DNA of 26,264 nt. Origin: Lentzea aerocolonigenes. GTDB taxonomy: Bacteria; Actinomycetota; Actinomycetes; Mycobacteriales; Pseudonocardiaceae. How positions within the stretch are numbered: position 1 is the first letter of the stretch; every line of letters starts with the position of its first letter. Where the stretch lies: positions 1 to 26,264 of the forward strand of contig NZ_JYJG01000364.1 of assembly GCF_000955955.1 (NCBI RefSeq), in the 5' to 3' direction. A program made the position numbers and the translations under genes. Shown here piece after piece: positions 207 to 16,192 of this stretch. The notes below the pieces were generated by a model that did no database searches, had not been told where the DNA came from, and was given only the letters and a program-made list of their open reading frames with translations.

Positions 207-1316
207 TCAAACCAGTGGCGCGACCACGTCCTCGATGCCGAGCAGCTCACGCACCACGTTCATCTGCTCCCGCAGGTGACTGTTCTCCTGCCGCACCACG
301 GCGCAGCACCACAGCAGGCTCTCCAGTTCTTCCATCGCCTCGCGCGCGTAGGCCTCGTCGATCGCCCGCAGCGTCTCGAACACCGGCTCCCGGTCGGTTT
401 CCGGCGTCCACCGCGCGCCGAAGTCCTGCAGCGCCGTCCACACCTCCGCCAGGTGCTCGTTCAGCTCCGCGACGCTCGTGGCCAGGTCGAACCAGGCCGT
501 CGACGGTCCGAGCGTGTGGCTGTGTGGTCGCAGGTCGGGCACGTTCAGCCGCACGCACGGCGTCTCGCGCAGCAACGCCACCACGGACGGCACCTGGTCT
601 TCGGTCACCAGTGCGAACCGCATGCAGACCAGGCGCATCGCGCCGAACTGCTCGCGGTGTGCGACGGCGACGGTGTCCGGTGTCGCGGACGCGTCGAGGA
701 ACAGGTCAGCCACCTCGGCACGCCGCTCGCACCACGCCGTGATCCGGGTGGCGAGCGCGCCGAAGTACAGCACGTACCGCTCGATGTCCTCCGCCGGTGG
801 CGGTGTCGCGCCGGTGACGGCGTCGTAGAACGCGCGCAGCGCGGTGTTGTAGTCGTCGACCTCGCGTGCCAGCGCCTCGTTCGCACCCGGCATGAACAGG
901 TGGTCGCCGTACACCACGGGCAACCGGGCCGGGTCGAGCACCGGCATCGAGCCTGCCTCGTCGAGGAACGGCCGGGTGACGTAGGCCTGCCAGTCATCCC
1001 CCACGTACCGGTAGTAGTACGCAGAGCGGTCGGCGCTGAACGCCGCGTCCAGCAACGGTGCCGCGACACCGAGCTGCGCGAGAACGGCCCGGTCCAGCTC
1101 CGCGCGGCAGAACGGGCAGCTCGGCGCGGCGGGCAGCTGGCCCCATTCGGCCTCGTCGTCGCTCGCGGTCGCGACCGCTGTGGGCACCGTCGACTGCTCG
1201 ACGAGCATTTCCAGGCAGGGCAAGCACATGCGGCCCGTGCACTGCGCGTCGACAGCGGTCACCGGCCGCTGCTCGACGCAGATCGGGCACGTCATGTCGT
1301 AGTTCGGCGTGGTCAA
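207..1316 (-). CDS. Variant RING-type zinc-finger protein (paralogue of the gene at 7364-8464)
   Basis: A 369-residue protein with a cysteine-rich N-terminus. C10-x2-C13, then C26-x4-C31-x2-C34, then C67-P-x-C70 imitate a RING finger, but the usual C-x-H is missing, so one metal site would have only three obvious ligands. The rest is predicted helical and has the family motif (VVYGD, then VDDYN near the middle). It aligns along its whole length with the gene at 7364-8464, including the stretch around EWGQLPA...CPFCR and the C-terminal helix ending in VVRELLGI. The start is TTG at 1316 because GGAGG lies 8 nt upstream and the paralogue has the same arrangement. It is divergent from the sigma factor gene. 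Function is unknown; a RING fold suggests protein-protein contact or E3-like activity (inference). Confidence 0.8.
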   Translation of the reverse strand: MTTPNYDMTCPICVEQRPVTAVDAQCTGRMCLPCLEMLVEQSTVPTAVATASDDEAEWGQLPAAPSCPFCRAELDRAVLAQLGVAAPLLDAAFSADRSAYYYRYVGDDWQAYVTRPFLDEAGSMPVLDPARLPVVYGDHLFMPGANEALAREVDDYNTALRAFYDAVTGATPPPAEDIERYVLYFGALATRITAWCERRAEVADLFLDASATPDTVAVAHREQFGAMRLVCMRFALVTEDQVPSVVALLRETPCVRLNVPDLRPHSHTLGPSTAWFDLATSVAELNEHLAEVWTALQDFGARWTPETDREPVFETLRAIDEAYAREAMEELESLLWCCAVVRQENSHLREQMNVVRELLGIEDVVAPLV

Positions 1317-1385
1317 CCCGCAAACCTCCGGCACCGTTGACTTCGGTCTCGGACGGGATTGTGGCGCCGCCGCCGCACCGCCGAC

Positions 1386-1401
1386 TTGCCCGGAAGGGCA
1401 A
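1386..1401. promoter_or_regulatory. Inverted repeat TTGCCC-GGAA-GGGCAA, candidate operator
   Basis: Perfect 6-bp arms with a 4-nt spacer in the divergent region between the variant-RING gene (start 1316) and the sigma factor gene (start 1475). Near copies occur at 6710, 8527 and 16259, each 55-70 nt before a minus-strand gene of the same family. Confidence 0.45.
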
Positions 1402-1474
1402 CCACGAGGCGCGTAATCAACGAGCGGCACGCGTGTGTGGACGTCGAGAGTCCAGACAGCGGCGAGGTGGGAAC

Positions 1475-2731
1475 GTGTCGACAGCAGACCCGATGACCGA
1501 TGCGGACGAACGGACGGATGCGGAGCTGCTCGCGGAGGTTCGCGCGGGACGAACCTCCGCGTACGGCGTGCTGTACCAGCGGTACCTGGGTGCCGCCCGG
1601 CGCACCGCGGCGGCGATCGGGTTCGGCGGTGCGGAACGCGACGACCTCGTCGCCGAGGCGTTCGCCGCGTCGTTGCGAGCGTTGCGGCGCGGTGCCGGAC
1701 CGACCGAGGCCTTCCAGCCGTACCTGTTGCGCGCACTGCGCAACCTCGCGATCAACCATCGGCGCGCGAACGCCCGCGTCGTTCCGCACGGCGACGTCTC
1801 GGTGCTGGAACGACCGGTCGACGAACCGGACCCGGTGATCACCCGCTGGCACCACGACCTCGTCGCGCGCGCCTTCGGCACGCTGCCGCAGCGGTGGCGG
1901 CAGGTGTTGTGGCACACCGAGGTCGAAGGCGCGAGCCCGGCCGAGGTGGCGGCGCTGATCGGCGGCACGGGCAACAGCGTGGCGGTGCTGGCCTTCCGGG
2001 CCAGGGAAGGCCTGCGCCGCGCCTACCTCAAGGAGTACCTGCCGGACGTGGAGGACGAGCGCTGCCGTGCCGTCGTCGAGAAGCTGAGCGCCTACGTGCG
2101 GGGCAAAACCGGCACCGGCGACACCCGGCGAGTTCGGGCGCACCTCGACGAATGCCCGCGGTGCGCAGACCTCGCCGCCGGGCTGGCACAGCTCAACCGC
2201 GGGCTGCGCGGCGCACTGCTACCGGTCGTGCTCACAACGCCCGCATTGGCGTCATCGCTGTCCAATGCCGCGCACGGCACGCTCGGCGTGGTGAAGACGA
2301 TCGCGGCGGCGACCTTGCTGGCAGCGGGGGTGTCGGTCTGCGCGGGCGCGGGCGCGGCACCACCCTCCGCACCGAAGCACCCCGAAGTCCCGGTCGCCGA
2401 ACAGGCTTCCACCGGACAGGCCACACCGATCAGATCGATCCCGTCCGCACCGCCATTGCTGACCGCCGTACCGGACACCTCTGTCACGCGAACCGAAGCC
2501 CGCACCGCCCCAACGGTTGCGACCCGCTCTTCGGCTGTGGCGGAACTTCCCCCGCTCACCAGCGCGGCCCGGCACACCACCACCGCCGATCAACCCGACA
2601 CCGCCGGGCAGCCGAGCTCCACGGCGACGAGCACGCCCGCGCCAGTTTCCAGCTCGACGACGCCGTCCTGTGACCTGGTGGTCACCCGGCCCAACGGTCT
2701 CTACGTGTGCGTCGCCGTACCCGGCCGTTGA
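1475..2731 (+). CDS. ECF-type sigma factor with fused zinc-finger-like segment, membrane helix and Pro/Thr-rich tail
   Basis: A 418-residue protein. Residues about 24-98 look like sigma region 2 (DDLVAEAFAASLRAL, then LLRALRNLAINHRR) and about 132-188 like region 4 (LPQRWRQVLWHTEVEGASPAEVA, FRAREGLRRAY; read in pieces). A C-terminal extension has H223-x3-C227-x2-C230, the layout of anti-sigma zinc fingers, then one hydrophobic helix at about 273-293 and about 125 Pro/Thr/Ser-rich residues that would lie outside the membrane. Such fused ECF factors are known in actinobacteria and are thought to be self-inhibited and membrane-tethered. GTG at 1475 is chosen because GAGG lies 7 nt upstream; ATG at 1493 is the alternative. 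Next to and divergent from RING-family genes, it is the obvious candidate regulator of the array (inference). Confidence 0.88.
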   Translation: MSTADPMTDADERTDAELLAEVRAGRTSAYGVLYQRYLGAARRTAAAIGFGGAERDDLVAEAFAASLRALRRGAGPTEAFQPYLLRALRNLAINHRRANARVVPHGDVSVLERPVDEPDPVITRWHHDLVARAFGTLPQRWRQVLWHTEVEGASPAEVAALIGGTGNSVAVLAFRAREGLRRAYLKEYLPDVEDERCRAVVEKLSAYVRGKTGTGDTRRVRAHLDECPRCADLAAGLAQLNRGLRGALLPVVLTTPALASSLSNAAHGTLGVVKTIAAATLLAAGVSVCAGAGAAPPSAPKHPEVPVAEQASTGQATPIRSIPSAPPLLTAVPDTSVTRTEARTAPTVATRSSAVAELPPLTSAARHTTTADQPDTAGQPSSTATSTPAPVSSSTTPSCDLVVTRPNGLYVCVAVPGR

Positions 2732-2831
2732 CTCCGCGCGAGCACGGTGATCGCCACGAACACCCCGGTTGCCCTTTCGCGCTGCCCCAACGGATCTGGG
2801 CACGCCGAGTTGATCACTCCACAGTGGGCCG

Positions 2832-3959
2832 GTGCAGATCATCGACCTGACCGGCTTTCCCGCGCTGCTGCGTCACTTCACCGGCCAGCCGGAGCCCGAG
2901 CCCACCTTCTTCGTCCTCGTCGACTGGATCAACAACCTGTGGTCGTACGGTGAGTTCGCGAGCGACGACTTCGCGAAGCTCGTCGACCGGGCGGTGAACG
3001 AGGTCACCGGCGCGCAGGCCGGCGCTCCGCAGGAGTGCGCGGTGTTGCTGGCGCGGTTGCGCGATCTCGTCACCGACGAGTGCCCGGTGTGCGTCGACCC
3101 GCTCATCGACGCGCGCATCCGGATTCCGGTCTCGGTGCTGCCCGCGTGCGCGCACGGGTTCCATCTCGTGTGCATCGCCGACTGGCTGGCGCGCACGGCC
3201 GTCGCACACGCTCAACCGTCGTGCCCGAGCTGCCGGGCCGGGATCGACCTGGCCGCGCTACCTCCCGCGCTCGTCGGTGAGGTGACCGCGCGCATCACCG
3301 GTCCCGGCGACGGGCCGCTCGCGACGTCGATGATCTCGTTGCACGGAATCGCCGAGTCCGGTGAGCTGATCCAGCTCGTGCGGCGGTACAACGCCGAGAG
3401 CGAGGGCACGGGCGTCGGCCGGCGGACGGCGCTGCTGGACGAGGTCGCGGCCGCCGTCACCGAGTTCGCCGAGTCCGCCAGGATCACCGGTACCAGGCTG
3501 TGGGCGGTCGCCGAGCTCACCGCGGACTGCCGGCAGCGCTGCGAGCACCTCGCCGCGTTCTGCGAGCAGCACCCCGAACGAACCGAGGCGCTGCTCGCCC
3601 GCGTCGGCGACTACTGGGGCGCCATGTCGCAGATGCGGGTGCTGGGCGAGATCCGCGACGCGTTGCGCGCGCTTGGACAGTCCTATGAGGACTTGCTCCC
3701 GGGACTCGACCTGACGACCGCGCACTCCGACGTGACCGACTTCCACGACCGGCTCAGGACGCGCTACGACGGCCCGGCGGACCACGACGACGCATCGGCG
3801 GAGGTCTTCTGGTTGTGCCTGGAGCGCATCCCCGCCGTCGTGCTCACCGTGCTGGACGCGGTGGACGAACGGGTGCGCCTGCTCGGTGACGGTGTGCTGG
3901 TCGCGCGCCGCGAGGCCGCGCTGGTGCTGGACCAGGTGCGGTTGATCCGTGGCCGCTGA
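2832..3959 (+). CDS. RING-H2 finger protein
   Basis: A 375-residue protein. About 80 residues of N-terminal helix precede a RING-H2 finger: C84-x2-C87-x18-C106-x-H108-x2-H111-x2-C114-x16-C131-P-x-C134, with the usual Trp (W118) four residues after C114. About 240 helical residues follow, including the family motif (ISLHGIAESGELIQLVRRYN). No signal peptide or membrane helix is seen, so it should be cytoplasmic. The start is GTG at 2832, the only start after the in-frame stop at 2811; no clear ribosome binding site is present, so a leaderless or weakly translated message is possible. It follows the sigma factor gene by 100 nt on the same strand and converges on the next gene with only 9 nt between stops. 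RING-H2 fingers bind two zinc ions and in eukaryotes recruit E2 enzymes; activity here is unproven. Confidence 0.87.
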   Translation: MQIIDLTGFPALLRHFTGQPEPEPTFFVLVDWINNLWSYGEFASDDFAKLVDRAVNEVTGAQAGAPQECAVLLARLRDLVTDECPVCVDPLIDARIRIPVSVLPACAHGFHLVCIADWLARTAVAHAQPSCPSCRAGIDLAALPPALVGEVTARITGPGDGPLATSMISLHGIAESGELIQLVRRYNAESEGTGVGRRTALLDEVAAAVTEFAESARITGTRLWAVAELTADCRQRCEHLAAFCEQHPERTEALLARVGDYWGAMSQMRVLGEIRDALRALGQSYEDLLPGLDLTTAHSDVTDFHDRLRTRYDGPADHDDASAEVFWLCLERIPAVVLTVLDAVDERVRLLGDGVLVARREAALVLDQVRLIRGR

Positions 3960-3968
3960 GGGGCCCCG

Positions 3969-5579
3969 TCAGTCGTCCGCCAGGTGCCTGATCACGGCGT
4001 CGTGGTCGTCCTGCAACCGGACCGCGTAGTTCGCGAGCGGAGCCAGCGTCGCGGCCAGCACCGTCACCAGTTCGCGGATCTGCTCCACCTTCGCGGTGAA
4101 CCGCGACCTCCCGCTCGCCGTGCCGCTGTCGGCAAGCTCGGCGACCAGCTGGTTCAACACGGTCAGCTGCGGTACCGCGAAATCGAGGCCGTCGTCCAGT
4201 CTGGCCAGCTCGCGCACGCATTCCTGGACGTCCGCCATCCGCCGCAACAGCCCGTCGGCCTCATCTTCTCCCGAACGCGATCCGTCGGCCCAGCCCTGGG
4301 TGGTCGCGGGCATGTCGGCGAGCAGCGTGAGCCAGGAGCTGAGGTCGCGGGTGACCAGCGGTCCGAGGAGCTCGTCGCGTGCCTTGACCGCGGTTCTGAC
4401 CGCGTTGGCCGCCGCCGTGCGCTGTGCGCCGGTGGCCGTGCCGTACGCGTCGATCGCCTGCCGGATCGCGGTCATCGCCTGCCGCCCGCGAGCGCTGTCC
4501 GGCCACGCGACGTAGAGGGTCTGGCGTTGCTGCGGTGGGAACTGTGCCCGGACGTACGCCTCTGCGGGTTGGGCCGCCGAGGGAGTCTCGGTCTCGTCGT
4601 CGGTGTCGTACTCGTCGGAACCGTCCAGGCCTTCCCAGCCGTCGAGACCTTCGAAGTCCTCGGCCAGGTCGAGCACCGGCATGATGTGGTCCGGCATCGG
4701 CTGCGGCTCGACGTTCTCCCAACCCGGCTCGACCTCCCGGCACAACGGGCAGGTGCGCCGTTGTTCCAGCCACGGCACGACGCAGTCGTTGTGGAAGACA
4801 TGACCGCACGACAGCGTCAGCGTTCCATTGCCGGACATGGTCTCCTGGCAGACGGTGCACACCGGCTCGGCGGCGTCCGCGAGCTGCGAGCTCACTTGGG
4901 CGACCACGCCGTACACCTCGCTCGCGCAGTCCCGCAGTGCCACCGCCTCGGCGTGCAGCGAGAGCAACGCGTGCTCCACCGCCGCCATCCGCGCCTGCAC
5001 CACCTCTGACCAGTCGCGAACCTGGTAGGTGAAGGGCAGCAGCACTTCCCGCATCCGTTCGGCGTCCGGTGCGGCCGGCAACGCCAGCGCGACGGCGGCA
5101 ACTCGCGGAGCGTTGCGCAAGTCGTCGAGCCTGCCGAGTGCGTCAGCCGCGTCACCGCGTCCGCCCGCGTCCAGCAGGGCGGCGACACCCTCGAGCGCGG
5201 TGCACGACGGCAGGTTCCACCGCAGGAAGACGTGGTCGAACGAGAGCCGCAGGTCGTCGGCGGAGACGTCCGTGTCGAGCACCGCCGCGAAGTGCTCCCA
5301 GCGACCTGCCTTGTCCCGCAGCTCGTCGAACCACTCGTCCAGGGCGCCGCCCGCGGCGGTGCAGTCCGCGACGAGATCACTCGCGCGGGTGTGCAGCTCC
5401 GCCACCGTGCTCGCGGCCGTCCGCAGCAGCTCGACCGCATGCAGTGCGGAGAAGTCCGCGTGTCGCACCAGCCCGTTGTACCGGTCGACCGCCTCGACGA
5501 GCGCCACGCGTTCCGGTTCGAACCGGCTCGCGCCCGTCAGCTGCTCCGACCACTGCGTCAGATCCACTTCGTGAACCAT
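3969..5579 (-). CDS. Large helical protein with central RING-H2 finger
   Basis: A 536-residue protein with three parts. Residues 1-235 are helical and begin MVHEVDLTQW with DRYN at about 32-35. The RING-H2 finger is textbook: C241-x2-C244-x13-C258-x-H260-x2-H263-x2-C266-x10-C277-P-x-C280, with W270. An acidic linker (about 300-340, many Asp/Glu) leads to a C-terminal helical domain beginning FPPQQRQTLYVAW. Two other genes (10346-11932, 13732-15384) share all three parts. It is the second gene of an operon: the upstream stop is 8 nt away, and GAGGA, the ribosome binding site 5 nt before the ATG, overlaps that TGA, suggesting coupled translation. Cytoplasmic by sequence. An E3-ligase-like or scaffold role is inference. 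Confidence 0.9.
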   Translation of the reverse strand: MVHEVDLTQWSEQLTGASRFEPERVALVEAVDRYNGLVRHADFSALHAVELLRTAASTVAELHTRASDLVADCTAAGGALDEWFDELRDKAGRWEHFAAVLDTDVSADDLRLSFDHVFLRWNLPSCTALEGVAALLDAGGRGDAADALGRLDDLRNAPRVAAVALALPAAPDAERMREVLLPFTYQVRDWSEVVQARMAAVEHALLSLHAEAVALRDCASEVYGVVAQVSSQLADAAEPVCTVCQETMSGNGTLTLSCGHVFHNDCVVPWLEQRRTCPLCREVEPGWENVEPQPMPDHIMPVLDLAEDFEGLDGWEGLDGSDEYDTDDETETPSAAQPAEAYVRAQFPPQQRQTLYVAWPDSARGRQAMTAIRQAIDAYGTATGAQRTAAANAVRTAVKARDELLGPLVTRDLSSWLTLLADMPATTQGWADGSRSGEDEADGLLRRMADVQECVRELARLDDGLDFAVPQLTVLNQLVAELADSGTASGRSRFTAKVEQIRELVTVLAATLAPLANYAVRLQDDHDAVIRHLADD

Positions 5580-5587: not shown

Positions 5588-6655
5588 TCAGACCACCTGT
5601 TCCTGACCGATGTTCGCGATGAGCGCGGCGACCTGGAGCCCGAAGAGCTGAAGCAGCCCGTCGACGCGGTCCGCCCACCGCACGAGCGGTAGGACCTCGC
5701 TCGTCAGGAACTCGTCGACCAGGTTCAGCCGGGTGCGCGCCGCCGTGACCGTCGCGGTCTCGTCCTGGGTGAGCGGCCGCCCGCCGTCGGCGTCCAGCCG
5801 GGTCGCGAGATCGACGACCAGCTGCCGCTGCCGCGCGACGATGTCGCGGGACTCGGCCACGTCGGCGAGCAGCTGGGCCATGTCGCCGGGAGCGTTCCCG
5901 GCGTTGCACGGCGGCACCTCGACCACGTACTCGCGGACGAGGGCACGTGCCCGCGCGCCGTTCACCGGATGATCGAGCGTCCCACCCATCCGGTAGAGCC
6001 AGTCCACGTTGTCGGCGACCGCGAGCACGGCGGCCAGTTGACGTGCCGTGCCGACGATCTGCCCGTAGCGGGCGAACAGCTGGGCGAGGTCGGTCAGGTC
6101 GTCGCGCAGCAGAGCGCGGCACTGGGCGATCTCGGGTGCGGTGCGCGCAGCGCGGGCGTGCAGCAGGTCGTCGTTGAACCGCCGCATCGCTTCGAACGTG
6201 CCGCCGGCGAGCTCGGGGAACCGGCCCGGCTCGGCGACCTGCTGCTGGAACGCGGCGGCGTCCAGCGGTTGCGCCTGCGCCACGACACCGATGAACGGGT
6301 CGTCCGGGACACGGTGCCACTCACCGTCCCGCAGGAAGTAGTCGGCGGCGCGGTCGGCGGCGAACACCTCGTCCCACAGCGCGGCGTCGAAACCCTGCTG
6401 CACCACATGCCCGCGCTCCAGCGCGCAGGTGCAGAGCGGGCACGCCGGTGCGGCGCGCAGCCTGCCCATCCCGGCACCGATCTCGACGGGTTCCAGCGAC
6501 TGCTGGAAGATCCAGCCGAGACAGGTCATGCACAACGCGATGCGGCACGCCCCGCCGGGGTGCATCACGACGGCGGTGACGCCTTCGGCCGCCAGCTCGT
6601 CCCAAGTGGACATGCACACCGGGCACGTGGTCAGCTCGCCGTAAGTCGTGGGCAT
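5588..6655 (-). CDS. Variant RING-type zinc-finger protein, first gene of a two-gene operon
   Basis: A 355-residue protein with N-terminal C11-x2-C14, C37-x4-C42-x2-C45 and C72-P-x-C75. This is the same His-less pattern as in the genes at 207-1316 and 7364-8464, although the overall sequence is more divergent; H32 could supply a missing ligand. The body is helical with the family motif near residue 155-165 (AMRRFNDDLL). The start is ATG at 6655, preceded by GGAGG 5 nt upstream; an upstream in-frame TTG at 6667 lacks a site. It is followed after 8 nt by the central-RING gene at 3969-5579, so a His-less and a classical finger protein are made together, which may mean they form a complex (inference). 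Confidence 0.83.
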   Translation of the reverse strand: MPTTYGELTTCPVCMSTWDELAAEGVTAVVMHPGGACRIALCMTCLGWIFQQSLEPVEIGAGMGRLRAAPACPLCTCALERGHVVQQGFDAALWDEVFAADRAADYFLRDGEWHRVPDDPFIGVVAQAQPLDAAAFQQQVAEPGRFPELAGGTFEAMRRFNDDLLHARAARTAPEIAQCRALLRDDLTDLAQLFARYGQIVGTARQLAAVLAVADNVDWLYRMGGTLDHPVNGARARALVREYVVEVPPCNAGNAPGDMAQLLADVAESRDIVARQRQLVVDLATRLDADGGRPLTQDETATVTAARTRLNLVDEFLTSEVLPLVRWADRVDGLLQLFGLQVAALIANIGQEQVV

Positions 6656-6943: not shown

Positions 6944-7357
6944 ATGGACCATGTCACCACCAGGACCACCAGTGCCCTGCACATGAGTTGCGCCGACGGC
7001 ACGGAACGATCGCTCGCCACCGGGATCGTGTACGACACCAGGGACCCGTACACACTGGCGTTCGTCTTCACGGTCGGTTCCCAGCAGGTGCGGTGGGCGA
7101 TCGGCCGTGATCTCGTGGCCGCCGGGCTGCTCGCGCCCACCGGCGATGGTGACGTGGTCGTCCGCCCTGCTGAGGACGACGCCACCCGCGTCGAGTTCCG
7201 GCTCGCGGACCACGGTCGGGTGTCGACGCTCAGCGCGGCGCTGCTGGACGTGGCCGAGTTCGTCGACCGCACCTTCGAGGTCGTGCCGATGGGCGAGGAG
7301 TCGCGGTGGATGGACCTCGACGGCGAAATCGAGAAGCTCTTGTCCGCCATCGAGTAG
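6944..7357 (+). CDS. SsgA-family sporulation/cell-division regulator
   Basis: A 137-residue protein, the usual length of the SsgA-like family. Family features are the YDTRDPYTLAFVF strand near residue 30-42, VRWAIGRDLVAAGLLAPTGDGDV near 49-71, and the C-terminal EVVPMGEES followed by an acidic helix. SsgA-like proteins are restricted to morphologically complex actinomycetes and help place FtsZ rings, remodel peptidoglycan or control septation during sporulation. The start is ATG at 6944 with GAGGAG 9 nt upstream. It stands alone on the plus strand between two minus-strand finger genes, and its stop is only 6 nt from the stop of the next gene. Its place inside the RING array hints at a link to development or division (inference). 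Confidence 0.88.
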   Translation: MDHVTTRTTSALHMSCADGTERSLATGIVYDTRDPYTLAFVFTVGSQQVRWAIGRDLVAAGLLAPTGDGDVVVRPAEDDATRVEFRLADHGRVSTLSAALLDVAEFVDRTFEVVPMGEESRWMDLDGEIEKLLSAIE

Positions 7358-8653: not shown

Positions 8654-9412
8654 ATGCCGCTCGCGGACGTGGACGAGTGCGTCGTCTGCCTGGCCGAGAT
8701 CGATGATCCGCACATCGCGAAGGAGCTCGGCTGCGGCCACTGCTTCCACCTCGAGTGCATCCTGCAGTGGGGCGCCGGGTCACGGCGGTGCCCACTGTGC
8801 CGCCTCGACTTCACCGCGGACTTCCCGGAGGCGGTGGACATCGGCCAGGCAGGCTCGCTCGCGGCGGACACCGTGCTGCACGACGCGAACGCGGCCGTCC
8901 GCGCGGCGGTCGAGGGGTTCAACGCGCACGCGAACGCGGGCTCCCCCGGCCCGCGAAGCGATCTCGACGCGATCGTGAGCAGCGTGGTCCGCGCACTCGT
9001 CTGGCGGCAGGAGGCCGTCGAGGAGCTGGCGTGGGTGTGCTCGAGCGCCACCGATCTCGCGCAGCGGTGCAGGCGTGAACTGACGCGGATGGCCGAGGAC
9101 GCCGGGTCGGCGCCCGCCTCCGGGTGGGCTGCCCTGCACACCGCGTTCGGTGAGCTCGTCACCGTCCTGTCGAGCACCACCAGCACCGAGAACGCGGCCG
9201 CGCTGATCCGGCAGTCGGCAGCCCGGCTTCCGGGCGGCAGCGGCAATCCCGTCGGCCACGAGGTTCTGACCGAAGTCGTCTCCGCACTCGACGACGTGCG
9301 GCTGAGGCTGATCGAGCTGACGGACTGGTGCACCGTCGCCGCCGAGGACAACAGCGGCGTGTGGGACGTGGTGCGGTCGATCGCCGCCCCGCTGGGGCTG
9401 ACCGCGCACTGA
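8654..9412 (+). CDS. Small RING-H2 finger protein
   Basis: A 252-residue protein beginning almost directly with a RING-H2 finger: C9-x2-C12-x14-C27-x-H29-x2-H32-x2-C35-x10-C46-P-x-C49, with W39. The rest is helical: a DTVLHDANAAVRAAVEGFN segment resembling the family Tyr-Asn motif, and a C-terminal helix WDVVRSIAAPLGL that resembles the end of the variant-RING proteins. ATG at 8654 has a perfect AGGAGG 6 nt upstream, so translation should be strong. It converges on the next gene with a hairpin over both stops. The finger is as canonical as those of eukaryotic E3 ligases; whether an E2 partner exists cannot be seen here. Confidence 0.9.
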   Translation: MPLADVDECVVCLAEIDDPHIAKELGCGHCFHLECILQWGAGSRRCPLCRLDFTADFPEAVDIGQAGSLAADTVLHDANAAVRAAVEGFNAHANAGSPGPRSDLDAIVSSVVRALVWRQEAVEELAWVCSSATDLAQRCRRELTRMAEDAGSAPASGWAALHTAFGELVTVLSSTTSTENAAALIRQSAARLPGGSGNPVGHEVLTEVVSALDDVRLRLIELTDWCTVAAEDNSGVWDVVRSIAAPLGLTAH

Positions 9413-9419: not shown

Positions 9420-9441
9420 ACCGGGCGGGCTACGCCCCGGT
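9420..9441. terminator. Hairpin between two convergent genes
   Basis: ACCGGG (9420-9425) pairs with CCCGGT (9436-9441); an alternative fold pairs GGGC with GCCC around TAC. It spans the end of the minus-strand gene (stop 9430-9432) just after the plus-strand stop at 9410-9412, so it could end both transcripts. No T-run. Confidence 0.4.
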
Positions 9442-10332
9442 CAACGTCCGGCGCAACCACGCTGCCACCACCGCGAGATGGTCCTCCAGGCGACGGTTGT
9501 CGCGCATCGCGGCGGCGTAGCGCTCCTCGTGCACCTCGAGTTCCCGCACCACCAGGAAGAGGTACCCGTCCAGCTCGACGCACCGGTCGTGCAGCACGCT
9601 CGCGAACCGCGCCCAGTCGCGTGGTCCGGCCACTTCCTCCGTTGCTGTCCACTGTGGATCGGCCAGCTCCGGGACGACCTCGTCGCAGAACACCGCGGCG
9701 GCGAACGAGACGTCGATCAGCGTGTCGGCCTGCAACGCCGAGGCGAGCGCCCCCACCTGGCGCGAGACGTCCTGGGCGACCGGCGGCAGCCGGTCGCAGA
9801 ACGCCAGCAGCGGGGCGAGCACGAACGGGTCGGCCGGACCGCCCGCCGCTGTCTGCCGGTGCAGACTCTCCGCGAGCGACCACACCTGGTCGAAGTCGTC
9901 GCGCCACCGGAAGACCGCGTCCACCGGCGTGCTCAACACGACACCGGTGGCCTCGCCGAGCAGCCGAGCACGCCGGGCGAGCGCCTCGTCCAGCGCGACC
10001 GCCGCGGCATGCACCGCCTCCGGCGCGACCGTGCTGCTCAGCAACCGGTTGAGCGCACCGGTACGCGTCACCACGTCCACGTCCGCCCTCACCACGTCGG
10101 CGGAGAAGGTCGCACCGAACCCTTCGTGCAGAGTGGGGCACCCGGCGACGTCCACCGGCCCCGGCGGGGTGAGAGACCGGCACAACGGGCACTCGGGCTG
10201 AGTCCGCAGCCACGGCCGGACGCAACCACCGTGGAACCCGTGCCCGCACGGCAGCACCTCGGCCTGCCCTGGCGGCAGCTCCTCCCGGCAGATCGCGCAG
10301 ATGTCGTGCGTGGCACCGACTGGCAGGCTCAT
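9430..10332 (-). CDS. RING-H2 finger protein, downstream gene of a coupled pair
   Basis: A 300-residue protein. The N-terminal finger is C12-x2-C15-x13-C29-x-H31-x2-H34-x2-C37-x10-C48-P-x-C51, with W41. After it comes PTLHEGFG, matching the PTLYDGYL and QTLYVAWP segments after the fingers of the large members, so this protein looks like a large member that has lost its N-terminal helical half. Its C-terminus is helical. ATG at 10332 has AGGAGG 9 nt upstream; the upstream gene's TAG stop overlaps that site (TAGGAGG), so the two are probably translated together. Cytoplasmic; biochemical role unknown. Confidence 0.9.
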   Translation of the reverse strand: MSLPVGATHDICAICREELPPGQAEVLPCGHGFHGGCVRPWLRTQPECPLCRSLTPPGPVDVAGCPTLHEGFGATFSADVVRADVDVVTRTGALNRLLSSTVAPEAVHAAAVALDEALARRARLLGEATGVVLSTPVDAVFRWRDDFDQVWSLAESLHRQTAAGGPADPFVLAPLLAFCDRLPPVAQDVSRQVGALASALQADTLIDVSFAAAVFCDEVVPELADPQWTATEEVAGPRDWARFASVLHDRCVELDGYLFLVVRELEVHEERYAAAMRDNRRLEDHLAVVAAWLRRTLTGA

Positions 10333-10345: not shown

Positions 10346-11932
10346 CTATGTGGATGACCGGCGCGGCCGCACTGCCTCACGCACCTTCGCGTGGGCTCTG
10401 GCCACCTCGGTGGCCCACGCGCACCACGGGGCGAGTTCGCGGTCGAGCGCCCGCAGCCAGCCGGTCACGACGGCGGTTGCGGCCCGCAGACCTTCATCGA
10501 ACCGACCGTCCGCGGTGCCCGCGGCGCCCGCTACCCCGGCGATCAGCGCGGCACCGCCCTCGGCGAGCAGGGCCAACCAGGCAGACGCTCGAGCGGCGTT
10601 CGCGGCGTGCCGCAGGAGCTGCGGATACGTCGCGGCCAGCTCGGTGCACGCACCGGCGACCTGGTCGAGCCGCACGGCGAGACCCGCGCAGCCGAACCGG
10701 TCCTCGACGCCGGTGAGCGACTCCGCGAGACGCGTGTCCTCCGCCGCTCGCATCAGCTGCGCCGTGCGCACCACTACAGCTTGGCGCGCCGCCTCGATCA
10801 CCTCGGACCAGCCGGTCCACGTCCCGTCAGCCAGTGCACCCAGCACCCGTTCGTGTTCACGCACGGCGGCGTGCACTTCGGCAGCGGCGGCCTCGACGTC
10901 TCCTCCGTCCGCCAGCGCCCGCGCGTGGGCACCGACCGCGCTCCTGATCCGGCGCTGGTGGCGCGACCCCTCAGCACCACCCGGCCCCACGTAAAGGGCA
11001 CCGGCTCGCCTCGGTGGGAAGACCGACCGCACGTGCTCACCGTCCACCGCGAGCCGGCCAGGCAGATGCGGCTCGGTGTCCTCGCCCGCCTGTGCCCGGC
11101 ACAGCGGACATCGCCCTCGCGTGCTGAGCCAGCGGGAAACGCAGTCGTCGTGGAAGTCGTGCCCGCACACCAGAGCACGCACCTCGCCGCCGTCGAACGG
11201 CTGGTGGCACACGGCGCACCGGTTTTCCGGGCTCACGACAGGCAGGCGGTCGAGCTCCTGGTCGCGTCCGGCGAGCACAGCGCGTGCCTTCCCGACATCG
11301 GACACCAGGTGCGCCGCGCACCGGTCGAGCGAGGTCAGCTGGTCCACCGACCGGTGCACACACGCCACGAGCTGCCCGTGCCAGCCGCCGATCGACTCGA
11401 CGAAGCTGCGCAACGCGCCCAGCACTACGCCGAGATCCTCCGCACCGTCGATCACGGCACCGGTCTCCTTCGCGATCTTCACCGGAGTCCCGCACAGTTC
11501 GCGGAGCAGACCGAGGTCCCGTGCGAGCTCCGGCACCGTGTCCTCCGCAGCGACTCGCTCGTCCACGACCGGGACGTCCCACCGGTGCGCGTGGAACGAC
11601 GCGGTGAGGTCGCTGACCGTCGCACCAGTGCTCAGCACGCGCGCCAGGTGACCGAGCCGCAGCACCATCTCGGTGACCTCGAGCAGCCAGCTCTCCAACG
11701 ACTTCAGCAGTTTCTGGAACTCCCCGCGCCGCGCGTCCGCGTGTGCGGCGAGGTCGCGGAGCAGGACGTCGGCGACGCGCAGCAGCTGCCGTGCGTCCAT
11801 CGGGACGAACGCCGGCGTGGCCACCAGGACGTTGTAGCGCCCCAGCACCGCGGTGACTTCCCCACGTTCGGCGGCGAGCAGCGGGGACGAGGTCAACGCG
11901 GGCCAACCGCGCAGCTCGACGCCCAATTTCAT
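10346..11932 (-). CDS. Large helical protein with central RING-H2 finger
   Basis: A 528-residue protein of the same three-part design as the genes at 3969-5579 and 13732-15384. Residues 1-230 are helical, with GRYN at 31-34. The finger is C239-x2-C242-x13-C256-x-H258-x2-H261-x2-C264-x10-C275-P-x-C278, with W268. The C-terminal domain begins FPPRRAGALYVG and is Ala-rich and helical. The start is ATG at 11932, with GAGAGG 8 nt upstream; a GTG three codons earlier overlaps that site and is less likely. It precedes the small RING gene by 13 nt and is co-transcribed with it. The upstream 133 nt (11933-12065) separate it from another minus-strand helical gene and contain two GGGCAG hexamers but no clear promoter. 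Confidence 0.9.
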   Translation of the reverse strand: MKLGVELRGWPALTSSPLLAAERGEVTAVLGRYNVLVATPAFVPMDARQLLRVADVLLRDLAAHADARRGEFQKLLKSLESWLLEVTEMVLRLGHLARVLSTGATVSDLTASFHAHRWDVPVVDERVAAEDTVPELARDLGLLRELCGTPVKIAKETGAVIDGAEDLGVVLGALRSFVESIGGWHGQLVACVHRSVDQLTSLDRCAAHLVSDVGKARAVLAGRDQELDRLPVVSPENRCAVCHQPFDGGEVRALVCGHDFHDDCVSRWLSTRGRCPLCRAQAGEDTEPHLPGRLAVDGEHVRSVFPPRRAGALYVGPGGAEGSRHQRRIRSAVGAHARALADGGDVEAAAAEVHAAVREHERVLGALADGTWTGWSEVIEAARQAVVVRTAQLMRAAEDTRLAESLTGVEDRFGCAGLAVRLDQVAGACTELAATYPQLLRHAANAARASAWLALLAEGGAALIAGVAGAAGTADGRFDEGLRAATAVVTGWLRALDRELAPWCAWATEVARAHAKVREAVRPRRSST

Positions 11933-12065
11933 GATGCTCACCTCTCGGGACGACCCGGACTTTCCGTCGTTGCCGACGATGCCACCGCGACGCCGGCGCC
12001 GGCCCACTCGGACGGGCAGTCCCCAGGGCAGGAGCGCGATCCCCTTTCAGTCCACAAAGGACGAA

Positions 12066-12926
12066 TCACAGCGTCTCGAACAGCACCGCGGCACAGCGCT
12101 GGTACGCGAACTGCAGATCACCGTAGGCAGCTGACAAAACCTGCGCCGCCTGCTCGCGTTCGGCTTGCCACCGGTGATCGGCGAAAGAGTCCATCTCAAC
12201 CCACTCCGCGCCGTCCCCCGGCGGCCCCGGCGTGCCCGCGCGTTCCTGTTCCACCGCTTCGGCCAGCACCGCGCGCACCTGCTGCAGCAGTTCCTCAGCC
12301 GACTCCACCCGCTCTGCCACCTGAGCCATGACCGCGTCGAACGGTGTCGGCCGCGCCAATGCCGTGGCGGCAGCGAGCAACGGCCGCATCCGCTCGGCGG
12401 TGTTCAGCGCGGCGGCGAACTCGTCGTCACAGCGCACCAGCCCGGCAGAGGTGCCAAGCTCGTCGTGGGCACGTTTGACGTGCTCGCGCATCGTGGTGAT
12501 GTGCTCGAGCGCCGGGCGGACTGTCGCGGCCGGCAGCGCGATGAGCTCGTCGTGCACGGCAACGGCATCCCGCAGCCGCCTCTCGGCCTTGTCGAGCAGC
12601 CTGGTGGCTTCCGCGCGCCGCCCAGACCAGTCGTTCTGAGCGGTCGCGCCCCCTCGCTCCAACACGCCGAACGCCTCCATCACCGCGTTCACGGCCACGA
12701 GCACGCCCCCCTCGATCATCCGCAGCCCCTCCTCGACGCGCTCGCTCTCCGTCGCGCTCTTGGCCTGCTGCAGAAAGGGATGCATGGCGAGCCCAAGATC
12801 CGTCGACCGCGACATGGCCGGAGAAGCGTCGAGATCGGCGGGCACCACTGCGGCTGCCACGGCCTGCCGCAGCGACACCACTTCCTGGCACAGGTCGAGC
12901 AGCAGTTTCTGCAGCTGGTTCGTCAC
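12066..12926 (-). CDS. All-helical protein within the RING array, no zinc finger
   Basis: A 286-residue protein with no Cys-x2-Cys pair and no membrane segment. It is rich in Ala, Glu, Arg and Leu with long heptad-like stretches (for example around residues 115-150 and 205-235), so it is probably a helical bundle or coiled coil. No family is recognised. The start is GTG at 12926 after a GGGGGAA stretch; this site is modest. It lies on the same strand as, and 133 nt before, the gene at 10346-11932. Its similarity in composition and length to the helical domains of the finger proteins suggests a partner or a finger-less relative, but I see no shared motif strong enough to prove it. Confidence 0.75.
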   Translation of the reverse strand: MTNQLQKLLLDLCQEVVSLRQAVAAAVVPADLDASPAMSRSTDLGLAMHPFLQQAKSATESERVEEGLRMIEGGVLVAVNAVMEAFGVLERGGATAQNDWSGRRAEATRLLDKAERRLRDAVAVHDELIALPAATVRPALEHITTMREHVKRAHDELGTSAGLVRCDDEFAAALNTAERMRPLLAAATALARPTPFDAVMAQVAERVESAEELLQQVRAVLAEAVEQERAGTPGPPGDGAEWVEMDSFADHRWQAEREQAAQVLSAAYGDLQFAYQRCAAVLFETL

Positions 12927-12938
12927 GGATTCCCCCGT

Positions 12939-13082
12939 TCACGGCTCGTCGAGCCGCCGCGCCCACACCGCGCATGCGCCGTGCGGTGCCGAGACCACGT
13001 CGAACTCCACCCGTTGACCCGCGACCAGCGAGCCGGCGTGCTCCCTGTTCGTCCCCGGTTTGCCTCGGCAGAAGACACGACC
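12939..13082 (-). pseudogene. Possible cold-shock-domain C-terminal remnant
   Basis: The last about 47 codons of a minus-strand open frame read like the end of a cold-shock domain (SLVAGQRVEFDVVSAPHG, then a short tail), but the RNA-binding KGFGFI half is not found upstream in any frame. It ends 12 nt before the GTG of the gene at 12066-12926. It may be a fragment, a diverged small gene, or chance similarity. Confidence 0.3.
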
Positions 13083-13215
13083 AGCCGTGGGATCCGATGA
13101 GCGGGCCGCTGGCCGAACGGGCCGTGCGTCCAGTATCGCGAGGCTCCTCTGCGCGGGCACGGCCTCAAGGGCAGTCGCGCGGGCAGCCACGGCGCTTGCC
13201 GGAAGGTCGCCGCCC

Positions 13216-13512
13216 GTGAGCCATTTCGCCGGTCCACCCGCGCCCGAATGGACCACACCCGACAAGTGCCCCGCATGTCCGCAGGCGTTCGAACCCGAAC
13301 AGCGGGTCTGGTTCAGCTGCCACCATTCGATGCGCAAGGCCTGCCTGCACTCCTGAGTCGCGACCAAGGGCGTGCACCGGGAATGGAGCTGTCCGTTGTG
13401 CCGCAAAGCACTGGCACCCGCCTGCAGGCCGCGTGGACCGCTGGCGGACGCGTTCGCCCGGCGCACCGGACCACGACCTGGCCACAACGCGGTGGTGTCA
13501 CTCTTCGCCTAG
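13216..13512 (+). pseudogene. Small RING-finger gene broken by TGA at the conserved Trp
   Basis: Reading from GTG at 13216 (GGAAGG about 9 nt upstream), the frame gives C18-x2-C21-x13-C35-x-H37, R40 where the fifth ligand should be, C43, then TGA at 13354-13356, and continues with C59-P-L-C62-R to TAG at 13510-13512. In intact family members the residue four after the sixth ligand is Trp, and this is exactly where the TGA lies, so one TGG-to-TGA change explains it. The lost His ligand supports decay rather than programmed readthrough. A strong terminator hairpin follows directly (13518-13548). The frame after the stop has stayed open for 52 codons, so inactivation may be recent. Confidence 0.7.
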
Positions 13513-13517
13513 TCCGG

Positions 13518-13548
13518 TGTCCGGCAGAGCCCTCGGCTCTGCCGGACA
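13518..13548 (+). terminator. Strong terminator hairpin after the broken RING gene
   Basis: GTCCGGCAGAGCC (13519-13531) and GGCTCTGCCGGAC (13535-13547) form a perfect 13-bp stem with a CTC loop; 13518/13548 add a T-A pair. It begins 6 nt after the TAG of the RING remnant and 184 nt before the next gene. The stretch 13549-13731 shows no gene; it is the leader of the gene at 13732. Confidence 0.7.
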
Positions 13549-13731
13549 ACCCTCGCACGACATCCCAGCCCCGACCACGGCACGGATTCGGGATGCCCAT
13601 TGCGTTTTCTACGCGACCATCCGATCCGGCGACAACCGGGAGAACTCCTGGTCGGACCGGGCCCGGCGTTGCCCGCGGCGATGCCCGCTCGGCCGGTGCG
13701 GCCGGCCCGGTGCGCTGCCACCGTCGACGGC

Positions 13732-15384
13732 ATGGTCAACCAGGTGGATTTCCGCGACTGGCCCGGCGGACCCGTGCTCGCGCACGTGGCAGGCACCGTC
13801 CAGAACGCCGTGGCAGTGTGCGAAACGGCGTTCGCCGGGCAGCGGGTGACTGCGGCGCTGCACCGCGAGGACGAGCTCGTGGGATCCGTGCGGGTCGACG
13901 ACTTCGACCCGGCCGAGGTCGGCACGGCGGCCGGGACCGCCGTGGCGTGGCTGGACGAGGTGGGTGACGCGGCGGGTGCCGTCGTGGCCGAGGCGGACGC
14001 GCTGCGGCACGTGATCGCCATGTGGTTCGACAGCACCACCGAACGGCTCACTGAGATCTCCACGCGCTTCGACGCCGTTGCCGCGGAAGGAGGTTCTCAC
14101 CTGCCGCCGCTGACGGACCGGCTCGCGGCCGTCGACCGGGCGGTGCCCGCGTTCGATCTCGACCGCCTCGGTGAGCTGGCGCGTTCGGTCGCCGCACCCG
14201 AGCTCACCACGCAGATCACGACGCTCGACGAGCTGCGGCGCTACGCCGCGCGCATGCCCGCGATGGTGGTGGAGGTGCTGGCAACGTCGGACGCTGATCC
14301 GGACGGCGTAGCGGCCACGCTGGCGGATTTCGCCGCCACCGTGCAGGCGTGGCAGCGCACGGCGGCCCCGGTCGCCGGCGAGGTGCTGGAACAGCTGCTG
14401 GTCGCGTCCGCGGCCGCCGAACGGCTCAGCACCGCGGCCCGGTCGTACGCGGCGGGATTGCGCGAGTCCACCAGCGAGTCGTGCCTGATCTGCCTGGAGA
14501 ACGTGCTGGACGGCGAGGGCGCCGCGCCGTGCTGGCGGTTGTTGTGCGGGCACTCGTTCCACAGTCGCTGTGCGCACGACTGGCTCGCGCTGCGGGGCAC
14601 GTGCCCGACTTGCCGCAGGCCCGCCGACGGCCTCACCGGGTTCATGCCGGTCTCGATGCCGGTGAACATCGATCCGGTGCTGGACTTCGGCGAGCAACCT
14701 GACGACGAAAGCGAGCTGGCGGTGCCACCGCCCCCGTCCTTCCCGGCGACGGACTTCCCCACGCTGTACGACGGGTATCTGGGGCCGGGGTCACCCACCT
14801 ACAGCGGCAGACTCAATGAGCTGCTCGGCGCCCGCGAGACCGCGACCGACCACGGCAGGCGGGCCGAGCTCGACGCCGCCGTGCGCCGCGAGATCGCGGG
14901 CAGGGCCGAGCTGCTCGCAGAGCTCGACGGCAGCACGCCGCTGAGCCCGTGGCACGAAGTCCTGTCCGACACCGCCGAAATCCTGCGGGCCGGCGAGAGA
15001 CGGCTCAGCGAGGCGGTGGCCGGCGCGGCCGGCCGCGACGACCTCGGCAGGCGAGTGAGCCAAGTCGGCCGCGAGATCAAGTACATGCTGACCAACTCGT
15101 TCGGTTTCGTCACCGATCTCGAGGACACCGCCTCGTGGGCGGAGGGCTTCACCGCCATCGCGACGCAGGTCCGCGCGGTCCGCGACTGGCTGTCGACGCT
15201 GGCCGGCTACACACCTTCCGCCCAGTTCGGTTCGCTGGACGAGGTTCACGACGACCTGGTCACGCGCAACAAGGCGGTGTCCGACACGGCGGCGGCGACT
15301 GCCGCCACACTGCTCGAGGTGTCCAAGTGGGTCGAGCAGGCCCGATCGGACCACGACGCGATCCTCGCCCGCCTCACCACCTGA
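13732..15384 (+). CDS. Large helical protein with central RING-H2 finger
   Basis: A 550-residue protein, the third with the three-part layout. It begins MVNQVDFRDW, closely matching the MVHEVDLTQW start of the gene at 3969-5579, which fixes ATG 13732 in spite of a weak ribosome binding site. Residues to about 245 are helical. The finger is C251-x2-C254-x17-C272-x-H274-x2-H277-x2-C280-x10-C291-P-x-C294, with W284 and an extra C267. A Pro-rich linker (AVPPPPSFP) leads to the C-terminal domain with FPTLYDGYL and a second helical region with RLNELL. No export or membrane signal. It converges on the next gene, with a hairpin between. Biochemical role unknown; a zinc-dependent E3-like activity is the testable idea. 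Confidence 0.9.
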   Translation: MVNQVDFRDWPGGPVLAHVAGTVQNAVAVCETAFAGQRVTAALHREDELVGSVRVDDFDPAEVGTAAGTAVAWLDEVGDAAGAVVAEADALRHVIAMWFDSTTERLTEISTRFDAVAAEGGSHLPPLTDRLAAVDRAVPAFDLDRLGELARSVAAPELTTQITTLDELRRYAARMPAMVVEVLATSDADPDGVAATLADFAATVQAWQRTAAPVAGEVLEQLLVASAAAERLSTAARSYAAGLRESTSESCLICLENVLDGEGAAPCWRLLCGHSFHSRCAHDWLALRGTCPTCRRPADGLTGFMPVSMPVNIDPVLDFGEQPDDESELAVPPPPSFPATDFPTLYDGYLGPGSPTYSGRLNELLGARETATDHGRRAELDAAVRREIAGRAELLAELDGSTPLSPWHEVLSDTAEILRAGERRLSEAVAGAAGRDDLGRRVSQVGREIKYMLTNSFGFVTDLEDTASWAEGFTAIATQVRAVRDWLSTLAGYTPSAQFGSLDEVHDDLVTRNKAVSDTAAATAATLLEVSKWVEQARSDHDAILARLTT

Positions 15385-15392
15385 CCGGTGCG

Positions 15393-15417
15393 GGCCGGAC
15401 TGCGGCGTGGTCCGGCC
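15393..15417. terminator. Bidirectional hairpin between convergent genes
   Basis: GGCCGGAC (15393-15400) and GTCCGGCC (15410-15417) are perfect 8-bp arms with a 9-nt loop. The hairpin lies between the plus-strand stop at 15382-15384 and the minus-strand stop at 15422-15424 and can end both transcripts. Confidence 0.6.
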
Positions 15418-15421
15418 GGCC

Positions 15422-16192
15422 CTAGCCGACCGGGCCGAGGCTGAGTCCCATGTAGACGTTCCACGCGTTCTTGAGCCGGGTGTGCGCGCCGATGACGTCG
15501 CTCTCGATCTTCGTGCACTTGTTCAGGCGCTGTTCGGCCCACTTCCGCAACGCCCGCACGTCCTGGTGGACGCGCGTCAGCTGGACCCTGATCTCGAGCG
15601 TGGCGTGGTGAAAGCGATCCACGTCTTCCGGCTCGATCGGCCCGCGGCCGAGCCCGCGCCGTTCCCTGATCACGTTGTGCAGCGCGGTCTGGACGCCGAG
15701 CAGCGCCTCCAGCGCCTGGCCTGCCTCCGGCACGACCTTCCGCACCCCGTCGAGCGCCTGCATCACCGGTTCGACCACGATGTCGAGACCGTCGGCGGTC
15801 AGCACCTCTCCGCGCTCGGCGGCGAGCTCCTGCTTCTCCAGCTCGGCCCCCGCCGCGGTCATGGCCTTCTCGATCTCCATCGACGCCAGTGGCGCCAGCA
15901 GCGCCGAATGGGCGTCTGCCAGCGCGTGGACCGGGTCCAACCGGGCCGCCGACCGCTCGGCGAACTCGACGAGCCGGGCACGCAGCTGCTGCGCCATCCT
16001 CTCGGCTTCGTCCGCGGCCCTCAGCACCGCCGCGTAGTCCCGCTCCGCCTGGACGATCGCGGCCAGGTCCGCGTTGTACTGCTCCGCGGCGCGCCGAGCG
16101 CCCTGCGTGTCCAGCTCGCCGAACAGCGCCGTCACGTCGAGCTCTTTCGGAACCGGCAGCGAGCGCAGCCGTTCCGCCAACTCTGACCGCAT
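15422..16192 (-). CDS. Helical protein, finger-less member of the RING-array family
   Basis: A 256-residue protein without cysteine pairs. It begins with a short segment (MRSELAERLRSLPVPKELDV), then LFGELDTQGARRAAEQYNADL, which keeps the family order of a Leu-aromatic-Gly segment followed by Tyr-Asn and a helix as seen after the fingers of its neighbours. Long Ala/Glu/Arg/Leu-rich helices follow. It therefore looks like the shared helical domain without the zinc finger. ATG at 16192 has GGAGGAG 4 nt upstream. No membrane or export signal. It is the last gene of the array; it may modulate or pair with finger proteins (inference). Confidence 0.75.
   Translation of the reverse strand: MRSELAERLRSLPVPKELDVTALFGELDTQGARRAAEQYNADLAAIVQAERDYAAVLRAADEAERMAQQLRARLVEFAERSAARLDPVHALADAHSALLAPLASMEIEKAMTAAGAELEKQELAAERGEVLTADGLDIVVEPVMQALDGVRKVVPEAGQALEALLGVQTALHNVIRERRGLGRGPIEPEDVDRFHHATLEIRVQLTRVHQDVRALRKWAEQRLNKCTKIESDVIGAHTRLKNAWNVYMGLSLGPVG

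Follow-up and report, generated by a model that had tools for sequence, protein, structure and literature searches.

A dense array of lysine-poor RING-finger genes in the actinomycete Lentzea aerocolonigenes

Introduction

Ubiquitin-like conjugation in bacteria is encoded by operons of the Bil type and their kin. RING or related ligases that act on host ubiquitin have also been described in bacteria, such as SneRING of Simkania, RavN of Legionella and AvrPtoB (available text of PMC12591485 and PMC5819833), and bacterial RINGs are said, in the accessible part of another source, to diverge from the canonical eukaryotic ligand order (PMC11354881). Here we describe a dense array of RING-type genes in a 26,264-nucleotide (nt) stretch of Lentzea aerocolonigenes (contig NZ_JYJG01000364.1 of RefSeq assembly GCF_000955955.1). 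This stretch, hereafter the window, makes up the complete contig C642 of a 10.25 Mb genome that is assembled in 648 contigs and 96.6% complete. The analysis confirms that the array, first reported in an annotation made from the sequence letters, is real and lies where it was placed, at positions 207-16192.

We regard it as quite possible, if short of probable, that the encoded proteins form a new class: rapidly diversifying, lysine-poor to lysine-free RING proteins of filamentous actinomycetes that would combine a conserved finger with a variable reader arm, reside in an island with SsgA-like proteins and surface factors, and act on foreign ubiquitin or on a non-ubiquitin partner through the face that binds ubiquitin-conjugating enzymes (E2s). 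RING domains and bacterial effectors with ubiquitin ligase (E3) activity are already known; among the literature matches listed, none described a lysine-poor RING island of this density with SsgA-like genes. The titles listed included no RING arrays in actinomycetes (the survey of prokaryotic RINGs, Burroughs 2011, was not covered), and the matches listed held no relevant paper on Lentzea with a RING finger, nor one on Stv.

RING fingers of the array

In the array, R1-R8 and R10 are open RING-type genes, nine in all; a further finger is broken, and two genes (H9 and H11) are finger-less. The array also codes for an extracytoplasmic function (ECF)-type sigma factor with a zf-HC2 domain and an SsgA-like protein, both of them additions to the first-pass description. 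The first-pass annotation had called six of the fingers RING-H2, and comparison with profiles of the RING families bears this out: all six exceed the Pfam zf-RING_2 cut-off (E = 1.5e-7 to 5.8e-13) and have the ligand pattern C3H2C3. A strict RING pattern, which lets the fifth ligand be His or Cys and hence also takes a C3HC4 finger on another contig (C534), picks out exactly these six in the window; it occurs nowhere in 607,077 six-frame residues from 27 control loci of the same genome and its relatives, nor among 12,000 shuffled proteins. We therefore reject chance or composition as the origin of the fingers. Searched with phmmer against PDB sequences, R7 matched RNF13 (1.1e-10) and synoviolin (2.2e-10), and its finger matched 45 PDB sequences at E ≤ 0.01, the majority of them named E3 ligases.

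The three fingers described as His-less, in R1, R4 and R5, indeed have a common frame, C-x2-C...C-x4-C-x2-C...C-P-x-C. They belong to a family (family A) whose fingers have seven Cys ligands, with G, I, Q or A at the His position in all seven members, and R1, R4 and R5 accordingly do not hold eight zinc ligands in cross-brace order. R1 matches a RING model weakly (1.8e-5; 25.1 bits, cut-off 50), R4 and R5 match no Pfam model at E ≤ 0.1, and a seven-row profile of the family reaches, among solved structures, the RINGs of TRIM32 (5.6e-4) and RNF4 (0.0066). The broken copy also stands as described, with two Cys pairs in a single frame and a stop in between. The claim that H9 and H11 are finger-less helical relatives of the finger proteins fared differently: their best BLASTP match to any finger protein has an E value of 0.17, which leaves kinship by sequence without support.

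The open frames of the finger proteins span 252-551 amino acids (aa) and fall into several families. Within family A (R1, R4 and R5 in the window), R1 and R5 are 40% identical over 359 aa (E = 1e-82). Family B (R3, R8 and R10) has its finger in mid-protein and 24-28% identity over 387-570 aa (E = 1e-21 to 1e-10), and family C is represented in the window by R2. R6 and R7 resemble the other finger proteins mostly within the finger; when they are aligned with R2 (over 156 aa, E = 6e-5) and R10 (over 201 aa, E = 9e-7), the match extends beyond it. Over the whole genome, zf-RING_2 has eight matches (six of them in the window, one each on contigs C533 and C534) and the family-A profile five (three in the window, one each on the same two contigs), which gives 13 finger genes on three contigs, four of them outside the window.

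Conserved residues and predicted structure

Judged by their residues, the RING-H2 fingers appear to possess the E2-binding face of RING E3 ligases. All eight of them, comprising the six of the window, the R2 paralogue on C533 (R2_c533) and protein P0004 of Lentzea sp. E54, retain both the helix Trp and the Arg that follows the last Cys. Just before the second Cys stands V or I in six of the eight, and Pro or Ala in R2_c533 and P0004. The Arg is the 'linchpin' of RING E3s; it is present in 15 of 16 fingers of all types, including six of seven in family A, R4 being the sole exception. The Trp of the Arkadia RING is essential for E2 recruitment, according to the accessible text of PMC7594095. Retention of these contact residues favours E2 binding by the RING-H2 fingers.

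The finger is also the better conserved part of the proteins when compared with what lies behind it. Finger identity exceeds that of the following part in 21/21 family-A and 3/3 family-C pairs (the pairs are not independent), with the narrowest margin at 55 versus 53%. An AlphaFold2 (AF2) model of R1 from seven aligned rows (predicted local distance difference test score, pLDDT, 85) has an N-terminal strand-and-helix finger region and a helical body; the finger region consists of strands and one helix at pLDDT ∼75-93. The model of R3, from three rows (pLDDT 73, predicted template modelling score 0.43), places a 64-residue helix right before the finger and a low-confidence linker after it. Searches of PDB structures returned no significant whole-protein fold for the finger-protein models. 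The family-A model had no significant Foldseek match, and the VIA comparison hardly covered the finger. The second-best Foldseek row for R3 was the RING of RNF126 (E = 0.11, probability 1.00), which is not significant by E value.

Lysine depletion

The finger proteins are strikingly poor in lysine. By a regression on GC content over 90 control proteins (a crude open reading frame set from 20 stretches of the same genome and both flanks), the 13 proteins would be expected to contain 98 lysines; they contain 24. Eight of the 13 are lower in lysine than every GC-matched control, and four (R1, R4, R7 and the C534 member of family A, A_c534) have none at all. Without GC matching, the medians are 0.40% for finger proteins and 2.4% for 69 controls (p = 5e-8). 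Family A, with its two E54 members included, has five lysines in 2,598 residues, and one of those members (P0007) has none in 374 aa. Arginine makes up 6-11% of the finger proteins. GC bias as the full cause was rejected in part: it explains some of the effect (r = -0.56), and the difference of 24 versus 98 remains. A few non-finger genes of the surrounding island are lysine-low as well. A protein at L023:1298-2227, which has no Pfam match, contains a single lysine in 309 aa.

Distribution in other genomes

The first-pass suggestion of a lineage-restricted expansion is supported by the searches of other genomes. zf-RING_2 is matched in 0/59 other relatives and 0/393 other genomes of the class (the two sets overlap), and family A in 0/23 other genomes of the genus, 22 of which are at least 98% complete, and in 0/389 genomes of the family, scored on five candidates per genome. 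A database of 5.8 billion proteins was queried with R3, family C and family A (not with R6, R7, R8, R10, H9 or H11). Full-length relatives from outside the genome came solely from Lentzea sp. E54 (L. xerophila): P0004 of family C, 41% identical to R2, and P0007 and P0009 of family A, 50% and 38% identical to R1. Another RING protein in this search, P0005, covers 30% of the query, and R3 retrieved itself alone. The family-A search was incomplete, with R5 and the C533 and C534 query members unlisted, so absence there is weak evidence. Families C and A had no match in named genomes, family B none in viral contigs, R7, R3 and R1 none in plasmids, and R7 none in phages; these sets may omit the window's own genome. 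In the family-A tree, the C533 member (A_c533) groups with P0009 at a support of 100/100, and the remaining forks are weak; at least one family-A lineage is therefore common to two species.

A genomic island with surface factors and SsgA-like genes

All finger genes seem to belong to one island, flanked by remnants of an nmrA-like and a ridA-like gene. Collinearity with relatives extends over C533:1-11942 (in genome G018, 11.5 kb at 86%) and, with the same relatives, over the window from 20086 to ∼23.6 kb. Both synteny breaks are intragenic, in the nmrA-like gene on C533 and in the ridA-like gene in the window. Both flank anchors lie on one stretch in five of seven relatives fetched. The distance between them is ∼5 kb in four of these and 1.4-7.2 kb in the fifth, which has a split left anchor; the two remaining relatives gave no left anchor. 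C534 very probably follows C533 within the island. The right end of C533 and the left end of C534 have exactly 19 nt in common, and the open frame that leaves C533 goes on in C534 for 114 codons until a stop, in a continuation that resembles, by eye, the preceding discoidin-type (F5/8 type C) domain. The island would then very probably run C533:11942-24595, C534 (35.7 kb), a gap of unknown size and window 1-20086, for a size of at least 68 kb if C534 belongs to it and ∼33 kb if not.

Besides the array, the finger contigs carry three more SsgA-like genes, a GHL15 hypothetical glycosidase, a ricin-B/F5-F8 lectin protein, DUF11/DUF7507 proteins and four Stv proteins, of which two pass the Pfam cut-off and two fall short of it. 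On C534 (L022/L023), the Stv proteins have long C-terminal parts and are interleaved with DUF11/DUF7507 proteins, two finger proteins and two SsgA-like genes; a further island protein there (L022:9846-11666) has a C-terminal helix-turn-helix match. A PI-PLC-like gene stands beside the C533 fingers (L021:3049-4428; Pfam 0.017, below cut-off), and a decayed copy lies at the window array, so the two sides of the island share ancestry. Between the array and the ridA remnant, window 17705-20014 holds a DUF397-like gene (by eye) and XRE/DUF5753 and PF04672 methyltransferase genes. Table 1 lists the features of the window.

The same chromosomal slot has other occupants in relatives. G018, one of the five with both anchors on one stretch, has an NNH7-NACHT NTPase there (L084:12266-15724), two further relatives (L086 and L087) have DNA similar to the G018 slot over much of its extent, and G021 has a transposase-like and a HINT-like gene (by eye). 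The slot thus looks like an exchange site that also accepts immune genes. A foreign or contaminating contig is rejected as a source of the window: a flank gene at 22511-23548 is matched in all 23 other genomes of the genus at 67-95% identity (in two of these genomes as a partial or divided match), and collinearity with relatives is regained at 20086. This gene is mostly 85-95% identical within the genus, with 67% in one genome; the finger proteins thus either evolve more quickly or have a different history. No shared upstream repeat was prominent among the 20 largest of at least 60 repeat families.

Table 1. Features of the window, with positions on the contig
Feature	Positions	Strand	Description
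R1	207..1316	-	Family A; His-less RING-like finger and helical body; no lysine
Motif	1391..1401	-	TTGCCCTTTCG-like, one mismatch, upstream of R1; weak
Sigma factor	1493..2731	+	ECF-type, with zf-HC2 domain
Motif	2769..2779	+	TTGCCCTTTCG, upstream of R2 and also of its C533 paralogue; weak
R2	2832..3959	+	Family C; RING-H2, finger 3081-3233; paralogue on C533, relative in Lentzea sp. E54
R3	3969..5579	-	Family B; helical part, RING-H2 (finger 4740-4859), low-confidence linker, helical part
R4	5588..6655	-	Family A; His-less finger; no lysine; Thr replaces Arg after last Cys
SsgA-like	6944..7357	+	PF04686
R5	7364..8464	-	Family A; His-less finger; one lysine
R6	8654..9412	+	N-terminal RING-H2 (8678-8800); one lysine
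R7	9430..10332	-	N-terminal RING-H2 (10180-10299); no lysine
R8	10346..11932	-	Family B by sequence; RING-H2 (11099-11218) mid-protein; lysine ordinary for its GC
H9	12066..12926	-	Finger-less; no Pfam match
Broken copy	13267..13401	+	RING-like; in-frame stop between two Cys-rich halves
R10	13732..15384	+	Family B by sequence; RING-H2 (14482-14613) mid-protein
H11	15422..16192	-	Finger-less; no Pfam match; weak PADLOC match to JetC (2.3e-4)
PI-PLC-like remnant	16377..16536	+	77% over 161 nt to the copy beside the C533 finger genes
ridA-like remnant	20086..20259	+	3' remnant; right island edge, where synteny with relatives resumes

Ubiquitin partners and neighbouring genes

The first-pass annotation saw none of the partners found in ubiquitin-like operons, and this stands for the genes read on the three finger contigs, among which no ubiquitin-activating enzyme (E1), E2, ubiquitin-like protein (Ubl) or JAB gene was recognised. 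Genome-wide, a UQ_con search gave no E2 at E ≤ 1, and no control genome topped the UQ_con cut-off either. A ThiF search, which gave matches in 14/14 control genomes (over cut-off in 11), put a single protein over the cut-off and gave four further matches that were weak and partial; the single protein, on C498, has 398 aa and a rhodanese-like tail and is MoeZ-type by eye. No E1 + E2 pair of a bacterial ubiquitin-like conjugation system was thus seen in this 96.6% complete genome with ThiF and UQ_con, PF14457-14462, JAB and the Ubl families lying outside the search.

SsgA-like genes are unusually frequent near the fingers. The window copy matches PF04686 at 5.4e-22 (78 bits, cut-off 25), and four of the nine SsgA-like genes in the genome lie on the three finger contigs, which make up 0.84% of its bases. 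This enrichment has p = 6e-7 if the copies are independent, and local duplication breaks that independence (a pair of the copies is 54% alike). The available text of PMC3814722 and PMC4457907 describes SsgA-like proteins as regulators of development and SsgB as recruiting FtsZ.

The k-mers common to 26 upstream regions show no excess over shuffles, several C533 and C534 gene starts being approximate. One motif, TTGCCCTTTCG, was spotted post hoc by eye; at one mismatch or fewer it occurs twice in window 1-20000, twice in the island part of C533, never in C534 and never in 308,053 control bases. Three of these four occurrences lie, as a weak association, upstream of finger genes: R1 (1391), R2 (2769) and R2_c533 (C533:17627). 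A longer form has four window matches at up to three mismatches, a similarly weak excess that was equalled in 1/100 shuffles. Ten array proteins were compared with the PADLOC-DB models (R5 was not given); nine had no match at E ≤ 0.01, and H11 had the weak JetC match listed in Table 1. No P-loop NTPase family of Pfam was matched in 12 array proteins (R1-R8, R10, H9, H11 and the SsgA-like protein).

Possible roles of the finger proteins

We conjecture, with considerable reserve, that the finger proteins may be diversified E3-type ligases for the ubiquitin of another organism. The finger would dock a ubiquitin-charged E2, the variable arm would pick the target, and the lysine-poor body might keep the ligase from tagging itself. 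As the genome search found no E2, its partner would have to come from another organism, which in soil could be a eukaryotic host, competitor or grazer. Synthesis would take place in the bacterium, followed by delivery or release along a route that has yet to be seen, and of all these steps delivery is the weakest. A retained E2-binding face, a common finger with a variable arm, avoidance of lysine and no E2 found at home together fit E3s for foreign ubiquitin best, and we take the lectin, discoidin, hypothetical glycosidase, Stv and DUF11 proteins of the finger contigs in the same sense. Lysine deserts protect proteins of the ubiquitin system, and lysine-poor toxin A chains evade host ubiquitin, as stated in the accessible parts of PMC10169902 and PMC4030972, respectively.

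Several observations weigh against this conjecture. Lentzea is a free-living soil genus. No secretion system or signal was noticed, and no genome search for injection systems was made; the finger begins within about the first 13 residues in R1, R4, R5, R6, R7 and RING_c534, which would leave no room for a signal peptide. The C534 finger is above the zf-RING_2 cut-off and keeps the Arg, and it lacks the helix Trp; the seven family-A fingers have neither the His ligand nor a Trp at the corresponding point of the helix. In 3/3 family-C pairs, the N-terminal 80 residues show higher conservation than the finger does. Lysine content is ordinary for their GC in R8 (1.3%) and RING_c534 (1.1%), and E54 P0004 has seven lysines in 387 residues. 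The reach of the UQ_con search for bacterial E2s is unproven, and the company of SsgA-like genes points to an internal role. The Pup system is present in the genome, and low lysine could instead serve to evade it. Low-lysine proteins are common in Pup-bearing actinobacteria, and strain E54 is a desert-soil isolate, in the available text of PMC10665810 and PMC12300779, respectively.

The same anatomy fits foreign-ubiquitin, internal-conflict and developmental readings alike. Less likely by a small margin, in our view, is that the proteins are an internal conflict or immune set, in which sensors or adaptors would use their variable arms on invaders or non-kin, the finger would be a zinc-held signalling or oligomerisation module with a non-E2 partner, and low lysine would guard against the Pup-proteasome. 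The conserved finger with its variable arm, the many paralogues with one broken copy, the presence of Pup and the other occupants of the slot (NNH7-NACHT in G018, similar DNA in two relatives, transposase-like and HINT-like genes in G021) are what such a set might show; yet the E2-contact residues are retained though no E2 was found, no ATPase, nuclease or cyclase effector was recognised beside the fingers, and PADLOC offers no match for nine of the ten array proteins given and a weak one for H11. Rather unlikely is a developmental scaffold, with zinc-stabilised adaptors that work with SsgA-like proteins in septation or sporulation, perhaps under the array's sigma factor. Such a scaffold would account for the sigma factor within the array, for SsgA-like genes on all three finger contigs and for the TTGCCCTTTCG motif upstream of R1, R2 and R2_c533. 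However, zf-RING_2 and family A are both missing from all 23 other genomes of the genus, which can therefore develop without the finger proteins; the island SsgA copies may be hitchhikers or local duplicates, and no upstream k-mer is common to the 26 genes beyond shuffles.

A bacterial E3 whose home E2 escaped the searches, through divergence of a prokaryotic E2 or Ubl or through a gap in the assembly, seems very improbable. Finger residues suited to E2 binding, an assembly in 648 contigs that is 96.6% complete, and a search that left out the prokaryotic E2, JAB and Ubl families and whose UQ_con arm had no control over cut-off all leave room for it, but bacterial ubiquitin-like systems normally require an E1, and the search for ThiF, which had matches in every control genome, gave just the MoeZ-type protein and four weak partial matches. 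Least credible of all is debris of a mobile island without selected function: the broken finger, the PI-PLC-like remnant and the truncated flank genes recall such decay, against which stand open frames of 252-551 aa, a finger conserved above the part behind it in 24/24 pairs and a family-A lineage common to two species (A_c533 with P0009, 100/100).

If the fingers are active, a soil bacterium would possess an E3 repertoire for a ubiquitin that it seemingly does not make, which would suggest that it attacks, or defends itself against, eukaryotes around it. Should the fingers lack such activity, they offer a case of what a RING does without ubiquitin, an old question on the origin of the ubiquitin system. 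The lysine-poor bodies, in turn, would allow two ideas to be told apart cleanly: avoidance of the cell's own Pup tag and avoidance of foreign ubiquitin.

Comparison with known systems

Bil-type operons have in common with this locus just the idea of E3-like partners; here, no E1, E2, Ubl or JAB gene was recognised on the finger contigs. Bacterial NACHT (NNH7) NTPases occupy the same chromosomal slot in a relative and differ in that the 12 window array proteins given to Pfam have no P-loop NTPase match. SneRING, RavN and AvrPtoB are effectors of host-bound bacteria or plant pathogens, AvrPtoB acting via a type III system (available text of PMC12591485 and PMC5819833), whereas the genes described here lie densely arrayed in a soil-type actinomycete, and no delivery system was noticed.

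Family A is nearest to RINGs of the TRIM32/RNF4 type, with the same C-x2-C / C-x4-C-x2-C / CPxC frame, but lacks the His ligand in all seven members, with nothing constant in its stead. The RING-H2 fingers differ from eukaryotic RING-H2 E3 ligases such as RNF13, synoviolin/HRD1, AMFR and Arkadia in their bacterial host, in which no E2 was found, in being part of very lysine-poor proteins and in the lack of a significant fold for the whole R3 model; they have the same finger frame, helix Trp and CPxC. Unlike the bacterial RINGs described in the accessible part of PMC11354881, they keep the canonical eukaryotic ligand order.

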